A DNA stretch of 64,000 nucleotides from assembly GCA_902780235.1 (NCBI GenBank), contig CACZEL010000013.1, positions 33,442 through 97,441 of the forward strand. Reading direction: 5' to 3'. The notes beneath the pieces are model-generated. The model saw only the letters and a program-made list of their open reading frames with translations, did not search any database and was not told the origin of the DNA. The translations under genes and the position numbers were made by a program. Origin of the DNA: an uncultured Bacteroidales bacterium (GTDB lineage Bacteria > Bacteroidota > Bacteroidia > Bacteroidales > Paludibacteraceae). Positions 33,075-45,947 of the stretch are shown here, in pieces. Each line of letters begins with the position of its first letter. The first letter of the stretch is position 1.

Positions 33075-33989
33075 TTATTCTAAAATATATTCCACCACCC
33101 CCGGGTAAGCCCATGCAGAGGTGATATGCGGATTCGTGTATTGTAAATCTACGTCCAGTTTGTCGATCCGTTCCGGCGCATAGACACAGCGAACCCGGAT
33201 ATCTTCGGGTTGCACTTGCGCAAAATGACTGATACCCACGCGCACATAGACCTCGACCGTTTGCGGGAAAAGACGCATATGACGTCCTTCCGGTACACCC
33301 ACCGCATGGATCGGTAAGATGAATTTCTTCTCCGTGAACCGCTCGGTAAGGATCTGCAGATCCACGCTGTCTACCTCGGCACGGACGCCTTGCGGGATCG
33401 CTAAAGCGACCCGCATATTCGTCGTGTCCATGAGGTCGGTCAGTTCGACGGCTTGGGTATAAACGGTGTCAATCGTGTTGAGCACTTTGTCCTGCCCGTA
33501 AATCTTAATGGTCTTACGACCCAACTTGGGTTGGCTGACAAACTGATACTCTGCCGCAGGGGTCAAAGTTCCGTTCAGCACCACTTGCACCGTGCGTTCC
33601 TGCTCCGTGAAATAGGGGCAAGAGATCTCGTCGGGTGTGGTAGCGATCAGACTGCTTGTTCCTTGCAGCAGGTCACTGATGCTGCGTCGTAACGCGTCGG
33701 AAGGCACATGAATCGTACCCTTCTCGCCGTGGATGTATTGCCTCAGGTCTATCGTGAGGCGAAGCGGTTCGCGGTGATAAGTGTTGAGCCGACTACCGGC
33801 ATCACGCACCTCGATCATCACCGTGTCCGGAAGTCCTGACCCGCCCAAACCGATCGTACCCGGTTTACCCGTGTACTGGATGAGCACCGGCACGCGCGTG
33901 TTGCGCACCGACTGCATCGCGTGACCGTACCATATGCAGGCCGCCAACACGATAAAAAGCAGAAATGTCAGGATATCCCGTTTCACCAA
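33075..33989 (-). CDS. YbbR-like domain membrane-anchored protein
   Basis: 304 residues: one N-terminal membrane helix (ILTFLLFIVLAACIWYG) and a long extracytoplasmic part with YbbR-like beta units (PILIQYTG-like, VTIRVRDAG-like, KIYGQDKVLNTIDTVYTQAVELTDL). No ATG precedes the helix: the start must be TTG at 33989 or GTG at 33986, both in the AATTGATAATTGGTG array; an in-frame TAA precedes the TTG. Placement downstream of yajC is the usual Bacteroidetes order. Function unknown; YbbR proteins in Firmicutes regulate CdaA, but no CdaA is here. Confidence 0.85.
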   Translation of the reverse strand: MVKRDILTFLLFIVLAACIWYGHAMQSVRNTRVPVLIQYTGKPGTIGLGGSGLPDTVMIEVRDAGSRLNTYHREPLRLTIDLRQYIHGEKGTIHVPSDALRRSISDLLQGTSSLIATTPDEISCPYFTEQERTVQVVLNGTLTPAAEYQFVSQPKLGRKTIKIYGQDKVLNTIDTVYTQAVELTDLMDTTNMRVALAIPQGVRAEVDSVDLQILTERFTEKKFILPIHAVGVPEGRHMRLFPQTVEVYVRVGISHFAQVQPEDIRVRCVYAPERIDKLDVDLQYTNPHITSAWAYPGVVEYILE

Positions 33990-41783: not shown

Positions 41784-41889
41784 GAAAAATTCCTGTTTGT
41801 AGCTGAAAAATTCCTGTTTGTAGCTGAAAAAATCCTTCTGGTAGAAGAAAAAAATCCTTTTGGTAACTGAAAAATTCCGTTTTGTAGAA
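41784..41889. repeat. Five 21-bp tandem repeats abutting the TIR/macro promoter
   Basis: Units of 21, 21, 21, 22 and 21 bases with consensus GAAAAATTCCTKTTTGTAGMW. The first two are identical. A sixth partial unit (GAAAAATTT) merges into the TTTGCATA box of the promoter. Confidence 0.9.
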
Positions 41890-41895
41890 GAAAAA

Positions 41896-41929
41896 TTTGC
41901 ATATGTCATTATTTTTGTGTAATTTTGCA
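41896..41929 (+). promoter_or_regulatory. Promoter of the macro/TIR/TPR operon
   Basis: TTTGCATA and TAATTTTGC on the + strand, about 17 bases before the ATG at 41947. Confidence 0.85.
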
Positions 41930-41946
41930 GCGCAAAATGTGAACAT

Positions 41947-42861
41947 ATGGATAATTCCGGAAAAAGAAAATACGTCTTGCTGCATTGGAAAAGGCTGGTA
42001 CGGAAAAGTATGCTTGATTTTCTACAATGGAGCGTCATGACCATTACAATCGCCGGTTCGTTGGTGGCTTTTCTTCCAACAGAAAAAGTGATATGGCTCA
42101 AGGCAGCTATTCCTTATTATATGTCCACATATTGGTGGCTTGCCCTGTTATTGCTATTGGCTTTTATGTCGATCGCCGTTGCTTGCAATTGGCCGCACAC
42201 CCGCGCTGCCTACAAAGACAAGAAAACGGATATATGGGTTATTATCGAATGTTGTGATTTGCTGCAACAAAAAGGCTTGAAAGTGATTCATACCGTCGAT
42301 ACGTTCGATACGGATTTGGGGCAGATCATCAGTCCTAAGTCGCTTCATGGCGCATTCCTGAAACTCTGTGAGCAAGCGGGAGTCAATGTGGCTGAACAAA
42401 TAGATGCTGCCTTGGAGCGTCGTGTCCCAAGGACTGTCGATGAGAGTCTGCCGGGCAGAAAACGACAATACGGATTAGGTACCATATGCCATGTGGATGT
42501 GGGTTCCGAGCCGTTCTCCTGTGTGGCTTTTACCCGCTTAAAACCAAACGGAACCATCGAAATAACGAAGGAGGAGTATATCCGCTGTCTCAAGCAGATG
42601 TGGCGCAATCTGTCCGATCCGCTTAATCGTAATGACATGATCAATGTGGCGGTAATGGGCAATAGGTTTGTGGACTTACCCGCGGAGTTCTCTACGGAGC
42701 AGAAGATAGATTTAATGATACAGACTTTTTTTGCTGTAGCGCGTGAGAAATCCTGTTGCCGCGTCCTACGGATATGCGTCCATCCTGATAATGCGCCGGA
42801 TATTGATTTTGAGAAATATCCCGTCATCATTGAGCATCTAGCCAAGCGTCCTGTCATATAA
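41947..42861 (+). CDS. Two-TM macro-domain (DUF6430-like) protein, type II Thoeris ThsA-like
   Basis: 304 residues. Two membrane helices (about 24-43 and 62-80) precede a cytosolic domain. Motifs fit the DUF6430/TM-macro family: VDTFDTDLGQIISPKSLHGAFL (117-138), YGLGTICHVD, CVAFTRLKPNGTIEITKEEYIRCLKQMW and INVAVMGNRF where a macro domain has its GxG loop. In type II Thoeris such a protein binds a TIR-made ADP-ribose derivative (histidine-ADPR) and damages the inner membrane. Here it is first in a three-gene operon followed by a TIR gene 12 bases on. Family call rests on pattern recognition; the GxG loop is divergent (MGNRF). Confidence 0.75.
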   Translation: MDNSGKRKYVLLHWKRLVRKSMLDFLQWSVMTITIAGSLVAFLPTEKVIWLKAAIPYYMSTYWWLALLLLLAFMSIAVACNWPHTRAAYKDKKTDIWVIIECCDLLQQKGLKVIHTVDTFDTDLGQIISPKSLHGAFLKLCEQAGVNVAEQIDAALERRVPRTVDESLPGRKRQYGLGTICHVDVGSEPFSCVAFTRLKPNGTIEITKEEYIRCLKQMWRNLSDPLNRNDMINVAVMGNRFVDLPAEFSTEQKIDLMIQTFFAVAREKSCCRVLRICVHPDNAPDIDFEKYPVIIEHLAKRPVI

Positions 42862-42873
42862 AATTTCGCTTCT

Positions 42874-44019
42874 ATGCAGCAGACATCCAAATATTTTGCC
42901 TTTATCAGTTTTCAGAGTAGTGATGCTCGTGAGGCGGTTCGTCTGCAACATGCGATAGAGCGTTACCGTCTGCCGGCTGTCTTATGCAAGCAAGACAGTT
43001 CGATCCCGCGGCGAATCAAACCTCTCTATTGCTACCTCAACGATATGCATGCCGGTGAAGAGTTGATGCAGGAACTCAAATCGCGCATGGAGCAGTCGCG
43101 TTATCTGATTGTTGTTTGCTCTCCGCGTGCTGCTAAATCGGCGTATATCAATAGCGGTATCGATTATTTTGTTTCGCTGGGTCGCAGGGATTGTATCATC
43201 CCTATCATCGTAGATGGCATTCCATACAGCAATGATCCGGAGACGGAATGTTTTCCGGAGGCTCTAAAGCGCCATTTCCCGAAACATTCGGATCCGCTCC
43301 AAGATCATTCTATTTTAGGCATCAATATTCACGAGGCCGGAATCGGTTCGCGTCGTAAGGCATATGATCGCGCGATGTTGATGGTGGTAGCGCGTATCCT
43401 GCAACTGGATTTTGACGGTTTGCTCTTGCGGGAGCAGCAACGCCGGAGAAGAAAAATGATTCTTTCGATTCTCCTTGCTCTTGTTGTTTTTGCCGCTTTG
43501 TTCGTCACGTGGCGTCTGTCGCAGACCGTTGATGTGCAAGTGCAAGTAAAAGAAGCGACCGAACAGAATGCGTTTTTGCCTCCATGTCGCGATATTGCGA
43601 TGTGCCTGTATCTGGAAAACGAGCAGAAAGCGGACACACTTGCTTCCTTGAATGATATAATGGTTTTTGCCAATATCCCGCCGCGGTACATAGGTCGTGA
43701 GGTAAGGATGACGTTGTCGGCGAAAGACTTCCTATCGCTGGATACCACATTGGTTTTGCAGAAATCATTGACCCTTCCGATTCGTCGAGACGCAAGAATA
43801 TACGGGCATGTGCATTTCCATTTGTTGGACTTGCCTCAACCGGAGAAGGCTCATATCCGTATTGTGAATTTTCCGGTAAAAGCGGACGCAAACGGCTTGG
43901 TAGAATTGGACATTCCGATAGCGGATCAGCAACAGAAATATGAGGTAATAATTAATGATCGGGTAGATACCCTTTATATGCCATGCGGAGAAGATGATAT
44001 AATAATGATCGAACGATGA
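42874..44019 (+). CDS. Membrane-anchored TIR-domain protein with C-terminal extracytoplasmic domain (ThsB-like)
   Basis: 381 residues. TIR domain 6-175: YFAFISFQSSDAREAVRLQHAIERYRLPA, LYCYLNDMHAGEELMQELKSRMEQSRYLIVVCSP, IIPIIVDGIPYSNDP. A basic RRRRKM stretch precedes one membrane helix (196-214), then about 165 residues of beta-rich sequence with two PEGA/CarboxypepD-like parts (MVFANIPPRYIGREVRMTLS; LVELDIPIADQQQKYEVII). So TIR is inside and the C-terminus outside. Where TIR NADases of this type carry W-x-N-x-E-I, this has YINSGIDYF: Gly at the expected catalytic Glu (residue 95). Overlaps the next gene by four bases. Confidence 0.8.
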   Translation: MQQTSKYFAFISFQSSDAREAVRLQHAIERYRLPAVLCKQDSSIPRRIKPLYCYLNDMHAGEELMQELKSRMEQSRYLIVVCSPRAAKSAYINSGIDYFVSLGRRDCIIPIIVDGIPYSNDPETECFPEALKRHFPKHSDPLQDHSILGINIHEAGIGSRRKAYDRAMLMVVARILQLDFDGLLLREQQRRRRKMILSILLALVVFAALFVTWRLSQTVDVQVQVKEATEQNAFLPPCRDIAMCLYLENEQKADTLASLNDIMVFANIPPRYIGREVRMTLSAKDFLSLDTTLVLQKSLTLPIRRDARIYGHVHFHLLDLPQPEKAHIRIVNFPVKADANGLVELDIPIADQQQKYEVIINDRVDTLYMPCGEDDIIMIER

Positions 44020-45947
44020 AAAAAAATTGCTTCTTATTCTTTCTTGTCTTATTGTGCGTAGCGGTAGAGGCACAGACGCAAGCTGGTGTCGTGCGTACAG
44101 CAGGTCGCGCTAATCATTCCGGTCGAACGCTCAGTGATGTGATCATTCGGGTAGATGGCGAACATAATGCGGTTATATCCCGGGAAGATGGCTCTTTTTA
44201 TCTTCGCTTTAATGGTATACATGAAGGGGATATGTATCGGATTTGTAGCGTGCGTAAACCCAATTATGAGATACTCGACAAAGGATTTATCGGTCGTTCA
44301 CTTGCTTTTTCTTCTAAAGTACCTGTTACTATTGTCCTTCTTGACAAATCGGAGATGGAGCAGGAGAGGCGCATTATGGAGGAGCGGTTTGAGAAGACAT
44401 ATACCGCTAACTATGAGCGTCGCGTTCTGGAGATAGAACAGCAGTATAAAAACCAAATCATTTCTCTTGAGCAAAAAATTGCTGCGCTCGAAGAAGCAGA
44501 TCAATTGTTTGAGAAGATACATACGCAGATGAATGATATGGTAGAGCATTATCTCCGTACGGATTATGATGTCTTGGACTCCCTTGATCGCCAAATCAAT
44601 GCTTTGATTGAAGAGGGTATGTTCGACCAAGCAAGAGAGTTAATATTGTCCAAAGGTAATGTTGAAGAGCGGGTACAATCCTTGCTGAATATGCAGCAAC
44701 AGGTGGAGGCTAATGAGAAAGCTCTCGCCAAGTTGCAACGCAAACAAGCGCAGTTGGCGGCACAAACCCAGACTAATCAGGAGAAACTGCTCAAAGATTT
44801 GATGAACCTCTACCATATAGCCAGGGCTGATTTGCAAATTGATACTGCGCAGGTATTGGTGGATCATATGCTTGCTATCGCTCCCACAAACCTTGACGTA
44901 TTATTAGAAGCAGCCAGTTTTCAAATTATGACTCGTAAATCGATGATGACAGGACTGCGTCTTAGTCAACGTTTCTTGGCTTGTGCCAAAGTGCCGTATT
45001 CCGATTCATCAGCATTCGTTTTACGAGGCTACAATATGGTGGCTGCAGCTTATGGAGAGTGCTACAATTTGGATAGCGCATTGATGACCTATCAAGAATT
45101 GATACCAAGATTAGAAAAAGTGAAGGATGATACGGCTTTTTCGGGATGGACTGAACCGATATACAGACGTGTGGCGCGCATCTACGAGGATCGTAAAGCC
45201 TATGATACAGCCTTGTATTATTATGATAAGGCATGGGAAGAAATGAAACGCCATCCTTCTACCGAAACTCCTAGCAATGAAGCATATATGGCTTATCGTT
45301 ACACTTGGTTGTATAGGAGCATAGGGGATTATAAACAAGCGTTTGATTATAATCGGCAAGCTATTGATGCCTATGTTAATCTCAATGACTCCCAAATGGT
45401 AGCAGAGTGTTACCGACAACAGGCTTATGTCCACCAGCATATGGATAGTTTGGATGATGCCTTGAATGCTTTACGAATAGGCTTGCAGTACATTGATACA
45501 ATTAATAATCCTCAAGTAGGCGTCTTATGCAATATTTATTCCAATATGGCGGATATATTCGTCGAAAAGCAACAATATGACTCGGCATTAGTCTATGCTA
45601 ACGCCGTGCTCAATACGAAAGCAAGACGCTTTCCGACTCACTATATCGGCAGCATCTTTGATCGTTTTCTCCGGGCAGAAGTATATGTAGCGCTTCACCG
45701 ATATAAGGAGGCATTGGAAGATTATAATGCCTCTATATCAGACATACTAACTTACTACAAGGATGCACCAACACAAATAGGCATTTGTTATAGAAACAGA
45801 GGAGACTTTTTTCAGCAAATTGGAGAGGTTGACAATGCTATAGCTGATTATGAAACAGCTATTGAATATTTCAAAAAAGACAGCTCGGCTCCTACTTGGC
45901 GTATCACGAATCTTGAGAATATGATTCAGCAACTGAAAAATCCCTAG
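44016..45947 (+). CDS. Secreted TPR protein with CarboxypepD-like N-terminal domain, third gene of TIR/macro operon
   Basis: 643 residues with signal peptide ([20 protein letters not shown]). Residues about 22-112 form a carboxypeptidase-regulatory-like beta sandwich ([27 protein letters not shown]). Residues about 115-265 are coiled coil ([39 protein letters not shown]). From about 270 to 640 there are eight or more TPRs ([57 protein letters not shown]). Predicted periplasmic. ATGA overlap with the TIR gene. It probably contacts the extracytoplasmic domain of the TIR protein (inference). Confidence 0.8.

Follow-up and report, generated by a model that had tools for sequence, protein, structure and literature searches.

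Thoeris TIR proteins have been described as enzymes producing nucleotide signals upon infection, and in type II Thoeris the gene of such a protein, ThsB, lies beside that of ThsA, an effector with two transmembrane (TM) segments and a macro domain. According to an excerpt of PMC11204291, canonical macro ThsA oligomerises upon ligand binding, and harm to the membrane has been proposed as its effect. In animal Toll-like receptors (TLRs), as laid out in an excerpt of PMC8635717, a membrane protein holds a TIR domain in the cytosol and leucine-rich repeats (LRRs) outside. Here, we describe a three-gene operon from an uncultured Bacteroidales bacterium of the Paludibacteraceae (assembly GCA_902780235.1, contig CACZEL010000013.1), which lies in a stretch of 64,000 nucleotides, hereafter the window (contig positions 33,442 to 97,441). 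It consists of a ThsA-like gene, a gene for a TIR protein with a TM segment and an ectodomain, and a gene for a protein with tetratricopeptide repeats (TPRs). By its sequence the operon resembles type II Thoeris but lacks the residues on which Thoeris catalysis is judged, and it may be a bacterial cell-surface alarm receptor, perhaps one without the standard TIR chemistry. We give an even chance to an envelope receptor, built of Thoeris-type parts, that would drive a membrane effector by contact between TIR and macro domains; phage defence is its likely, putative role.

How far do the parts agree with Thoeris? The protein of gene 1 matches ThsA_Macro PF20016 (E 7.4e-33; 114 bits against a cut-off of 25) as well as the ThsA models of PADLOC (best E 1.8e-34), and a 10-sequence ThsA profile matches the solved macro domain of ThsA, 8v6q (E 2.5e-18). 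Since hydropathy gives two hydrophobic segments, it combines two TM segments with PF20016 as type II Thoeris does, and the first-pass annotation, which had read it as a two-TM protein with a macro-like domain of the DUF6430 type, was right in this. The protein of the adjacent gene 2 matches TIR_2 (E 3.6e-9, above cut-off) and ThsB_TIR PF08937 (E 1.7e-8; 35.2 bits against a cut-off of 21.2), and a ThsB-type gene is thus found next to the effector gene. Its single TM segment, at residues 195-213, follows an arginine-rich stretch with six Lys or Arg among 15 residues; because of this order, the TIR domain should be cytosolic and the C-terminal 168 residues periplasmic, in agreement with the membrane helix and about 165 extracytoplasmic residues predicted earlier. 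A Pfam search with the ectodomain of the window gave no match. The protein of gene 3 is apparently secreted: hydropathy shows a hydrophobic, signal-like N-terminus, and a conserved N-terminal domain, common to the relatives, and a coiled coil precede the TPRs (TPR_12, E 9.3e-13), which lie mainly from about residue 380. Signal, coiled coil and TPRs had all been foreseen for this protein; the beta-sandwich claimed along with them is weakly supported, by way of a relative.

The central finding concerns the active site of the TIR domain. A ThsA relative is present in 11 of the 250 genomes of the family, own genome included, and ten of these also carry the TIR-TM gene; in the remaining one (L021), a distant ThsA lies next to a gene of 186 aa that aligns with ThsB. 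A TIR alignment scan of genome contigs gave 21 loci, from Paludibacteraceae or Bacteroidales and several of them from goat, cattle, deer or reindeer, of which nine were taken as the same as loci already collected; as the scan is based on conserved peptides of this clade, it finds close relatives only. In the 22 loci made up of these and the window, the ThsA gene is always 5' of the TIR-TM gene (with two extra genes between them in L040, the same locus as L017), and the position of the catalytic Glu is always Gly. The scan peptides exclude this position but derive from the same clade; in a set collected through ThsA, which is independent of them, Gly is found in 10/10. Glu is present in all 20 related Bacteroidales TIRs of the order-level set and in all eight TIR partners of canonical TM-macro ThsA compared (eight and not nine, as L112 has no annotated TIR neighbour), and Gly in none of either. 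The RD motif of the eight canonical partners is also missing from the operon TIRs. When did the Glu disappear? In a tree, the ThsA-linked TIRs stand on one side of a branch with support of 100/100, and their placement relative to the remaining TIRs is weak (79/77), long branches having been flagged; the loss is therefore left undated. A 10-sequence TIR profile found no homologue among solved structures, two matches (E 0.032 and 0.69) being taken as chance, and an NCBIfam search gave nothing useful.

The effector is changed as well. Its ligand loop reads NVA[VI]MGNx[FL][VT]DL in 22/22 loci; in canonical ThsA the same loop is PxxG[ST] (9/9 aligned), and the rewritten form occurs in none of the nine. 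This canonical set leaves out two genomes with PF20016, G330 and G332 (loci L101 and L102): L101 has no match to the ThsA profile, and L102, left out of the canonical alignment, has no match in the locus profile labelling. When residues are counted by hand on the profile alignment, with the E. coli ThsA numbering from the excerpt of PMC11204291, ThsA of the window retains the equivalents of D83, D100, L113 and H259 and carries Thr for S175, Val for N96, Asn for S217, Arg for G218, Val for T220 and Asn for K262. At T220, L031 has Thr, unlike the window; His in place of N114 is shared with canonical L021. From the ADPR-binding set D83/S217/T220/K262, the window keeps the Asp and has Asn, Val and Asn at the other positions, a departure from Thoeris. 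The kinship with type II Thoeris proposed in the first-pass annotation thus holds for the PF20016 and ThsB_TIR matches; the TIR enzyme making a histidine-ADP-ribose (His-ADPR) signal in the usual way, which came with it, is not supported, in view of Gly for Glu and a changed ThsA loop in every locus.

On the side of the putative sensor, 18 of the 20 loci with downstream sequence have the TPR gene 3' of the TIR gene; the contigs of L029 and L042 end too early for scoring, and those of L028 and L036 end inside the gene. This genome survey answers the earlier expectation that the third gene is conserved beside TIR-macro pairs and, together with TM segment and ectodomain, that of a receptor-like TIR with an added subunit. 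A further component had been missed: of the 16 loci in which the TPR gene is complete and the contig continues past it, 14 have an LRR gene in the run. There are two in L027, L030 and L041, the last in the order ThsA, TIR, LRR, TPR, LRR. Pfam LRR_5 exceeds its cut-off in 13 of the 14 loci, some via duplicate loci, and stays just below it in L018/L039 (26.4 against 27.7 bits). Among 162 other open reading frames of the 21 relative loci, one is LRR-like, and it overlaps the second LRR gene of L030. The N-termini of the LRR proteins are signal-like by eye, with hydropathy flagging most loci, not all genes. Each of eight clade genomes, and the own genome as well, holds 21-70 LRR_5 stretches, with several in one protein.

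Selection differs along the operon. Between the window and L022 the ratio of nonsynonymous to synonymous substitution rates (dN/dS) is 0.04-0.19, and in three locus pairs it is 0.04-0.08 for the TIR domain, 0.12-0.19 for the ectodomain and 0.11-0.41 for the TPR half; by these ratios, the operon is conserved in its presumed inner parts and faster in the outer ones. In a comparison of 16 loci, the TIR domain of the window is 80% identical to the others, and its TPR protein 29% (N-terminal part) and 18% (TPR part), against 57% and 45% among the other loci. The window and L022 share this diverged TPR protein, and their TIR proteins are 90% identical. Without these two, the domain identities of ThsA, TIR and TPR correlate pairwise at 0.61-0.86, and with them the correlation of ThsA or TIR with TPR is 0.39-0.52, figures which still contain shared descent. 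From the divergence and the absence of an LRR gene, we infer that the sensor side was swapped in the window and L022 and that the LRR partner was lost with it.

How might such an operon work? The TPR protein, joined in most relatives by the LRR protein, would detect or relay an envelope event, with phage as a putative trigger, outside the inner membrane. The TIR protein would receive it through its ectodomain, and the TIR domains would cluster beneath the membrane, serve as a scaffold as in animal Toll receptors and switch on the adjacent two-TM macro effector by direct contact. The macro effector would then oligomerise, with membrane damage or a growth stop as the result. Direct contact seems most likely, rather than a His-ADPR messenger, because the TIR has lost its Glu and, in the same lineage, the effector has an altered pocket. 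Taken further, the operon could be a bacterial equivalent of Toll signalling, with LRR and TPR proteins in the envelope, an enzyme-less transmembrane TIR scaffold and a membrane effector switched on by contact, an idea that we put forward tentatively. If true, Bacteroidales hold both Glu-bearing TIR receptors, some of them beside a RyR gene, and a Glu-less ThsA clade, a parallel to animal Toll receptors and their non-enzymatic TIRs. Detection of outside events, and TIR signalling that needs no NAD chemistry, would become testable in bacteria, and the swaps found in nature (Glu present or absent in the TIR, ThsA or RyR, TPR alone or with LRR) could be used to ask how TIR scaffolding arises from TIR enzymes. 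A literature search over titles and abstract starts, in which few subscription journals are covered, found no such layout among the matches listed.

The operon agrees with TLRs in having a membrane protein with a presumably cytosolic TIR domain and, in most relatives, putatively external LRRs encoded in the same operon. The TIR domains of TLRs lack the NADase Glu, like the operon TIR. Unlike in TLRs, the TIR domain is N-terminal, and the LRRs of the clade are separate proteins, absent in the window; no protein of the operon joins LRRs, TM segment and TIR in one chain. We have no evidence for common descent of the architecture, and the likeness is to be taken as analogy only. Elsewhere, L084:3758-5812 (minus strand) encodes a 684-aa single chain of TIR, TM segment and LRR_4/LRR_8 with the Glu kept, a Toll-like architecture in reversed order.

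The ectodomain and its TPR partner are not confined to this clade. A TIR-TM profile matches 24 of 393 Bacteroidales genomes, seven of them, besides the own genome, at near full length; PF20016 is found in three of the 393 and in none of the seven. A search of the phylum gave six partial matches and no full-length match in the other 389 genomes. Seven of nine loci labelled as TIR plus ectodomain adjoin a gene matching the TPR-partner profile (L080 weakly), and the contigs of the remaining two, L077 and L051, are cut or short. In seven more loci, five with a TPR-partner gene, the ectodomain follows N-terminal domains of other kinds: an 'IFLASSAEL' domain, possibly DUF4062-like (L094, L095, L097, L100), a C39-like domain beside a sigma-factor gene (L096 and L098, the C39 match of the latter under cut-off) and a domain of no assigned family (L099). 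Because the pair recurs with other cytosolic domains, it is regarded as a sensor module, one of wider distribution in Bacteroidales and overlooked by the first-pass annotation. Where related ectodomains occur on other proteins, they have matches to carboxypeptidase-regulatory-like domains, with scores under the curated cut-offs, and in L085, of another family, a 1192-aa LRR_5 protein is encoded 3' of the TIR gene. Swarozyc, a DUF4062 TIR-like NADase according to an excerpt of PMC13174449, is comparable in so far as the window-type ectodomain sits on the 'IFLASSAEL' domain in four loci; it differs in that a DUF4062-like domain is not the cytosolic domain of the window. The assignment of the 'IFLASSAEL' domain to DUF4062 was not adopted and stays a lead, one of the four sequences matching, below any cut-off (E 0.069).

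Some of these receptors are accompanied by a RyR gene, in the run with the TIR gene in L075, L078, L083, L088 and L092 and with the ectodomain gene in L094. In L078 and L083 the two genes are immediate neighbours, in L088 they lie no more than 300 bases apart, and in the other loci the distance is one or two genes. RyR was found in 13 of the 22 order-level genomes searched, in the run in six and elsewhere in seven; a search of the eight other clade genomes found none, and the own genome has RyR on another contig. According to an excerpt of PMC13232231, a phage RyR-domain enzyme cleaves cyclic ADP-ribose signals, and RyR near a Glu-bearing TIR therefore fits nucleotide signalling there. The receptors of L075 and L078 resemble that of the window over nearly the full length of TIR, TM segment and ectodomain and have adjacent TPR-partner genes; they differ in the kept Glu, the RyR gene in the run and the absence of PF20016 matches from their genomes. 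L083 (4418-10737) also contains, in one Bacteroidales genome, a run of TIR-FGE-sulfatase, CHAT-TPR and TIR-TM proteins with its RyR gene.

Several points weigh against contact signalling by an envelope receptor. The related receptors keep Glu, some with RyR, which is in the same run in two of the seven genomes with near-full-length relatives (L075, L078), and the wider family is therefore probably nucleotide-signalling. L037 and L038 keep the ThsA/TIR pair without TPR and LRR genes, and the LRR gene is missing, among the 16 loci scored for it, from the window itself and L022. In favour of contact, the operon receptor is the sole TIR_2 match in eight of nine clade genomes (G158 has a second), though other TIR families might escape the TIR_2 model and the source genome is 79% complete. 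Given this count and the missing Glu and RD motifs, a messenger, if there is one, probably stems from a non-standard site of the operon TIR. Finally, the retained D83, D100, L113 and H259 equivalents and the nearly invariant new loop would also fit a new ligand.

The last point leads to the strongest alternative, in which the same receptor makes a nucleotide by another catalytic residue and the altered ThsA pocket reads the new signal. Glu63, invariant in the 10-sequence TIR alignment, or Asp97, which is Glu in one locus, would be candidates; the TIR domain is under strong constraint, the changes in TIR and ThsA pocket occur in the same loci, there is hardly any variation in the new loop, and the D83 and H259 equivalents are kept. 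Against it stand the loss of both active-site motifs of canonical ThsB and the absence of any such case from the literature by title and abstract start, among the matches listed. We regard it as possible but rather unlikely.

Could the operon serve the cell in its daily life? It might belong to non-immune envelope-stress or cell-surface signalling, with a macro protein that modulates the membrane without killing. The neighbours in the window and L022, recognised by eye, are pdxJ-like and exbB/exbD/tonB-like genes, in other families the ectodomain is also joined to a C39-like domain beside a sigma-factor gene, and a scan of viral contigs with the clade peptides found no relative. The patchy presence of ThsA in the family and flanking genes that vary, by eye, between most loci are as expected for a defence gene, and a housekeeping role appears unlikely. 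An ordinary type II Thoeris whose ThsB is anchored in the membrane and makes a His-ADPR-like signal in the standard way would agree with the PF20016 and ThsB_TIR matches above cut-off; as both the catalytic Glu and the canonical ligand loop are absent throughout, we consider it very improbable, and canonical His-ADPR signalling was rejected on the missing Glu. A decaying relic, which loss of the catalytic residue might suggest, has next to no chance and was rejected on the dN/dS between the window and L022, the three frames being open and the Gly universal in the 22 loci.

Coordinates of the operon and its upstream elements are as follows.

Table 1. Features of the operon, in window positions
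Feature	Position	Strand	Details
ThsA-like effector	41947-42861	+	304 aa; hydrophobic segments at residues 25-43 and 55-73; macro domain 99-279; PF20016, PADLOC, 8v6q
Rewritten second ligand loop of macro domain	42661-42681	+	residues 239-245, NRFVDLP
Putative TIR-TM-ectodomain receptor	42874-44019	+	381 aa; TIR about 7-175; TM 195-213; predicted periplasmic part 214-381
Gly95 codon at position of TIR catalytic Glu	43156-43158	+	locus alignment
Putative secreted protein	44016-45947	+	643 aa; signal-like N-terminus, conserved N-terminal domain, coiled coil, TPRs
Presumed Bacteroidetes-type promoter motif, TTTG-N20-TAATTTTG	41896-41927	+	from sequence; directly 5' of operon
21-bp tandem repeat, 5.4 copies	41784-41897	+	TRF score 128; 5' of promoter motif

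The spacing reported earlier, 12 bases between genes 1 and 2 and a 4-base ATGA overlap between genes 2 and 3, was found again from the coordinates of the open reading frames. The stretch 41784-45947 had been presented as the operon; its three genes do form one run, and its beginning is the tandem repeat, which is non-coding. The motif upstream of gene 1 is one that we take to be a promoter after the Bacteroidetes consensus, and its second box, TAATTTTG, is conserved in L022 and L023; scans for sigma-70 promoters and terminators gave counts near the level of shuffled sequence and were left out of account. In the source assembly (79% complete), the 16-base core of the repeat (at most 2 mismatches) occurs nowhere but here, and L022 has a different sequence at this position; a regulator site or a plain minisatellite are both possible.

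Other TIR proteins were met outside this clade. In two genomes, a fusion of a patatin phospholipase and an Omp85-type barrel is encoded directly 5' of a TIR-TM receptor gene (L086:10125-12320 and L087:10185-12293), and in L082 (7217-9847) and L081 (7800-9743) the TIR proteins have a TM segment followed by WD40 propellers.

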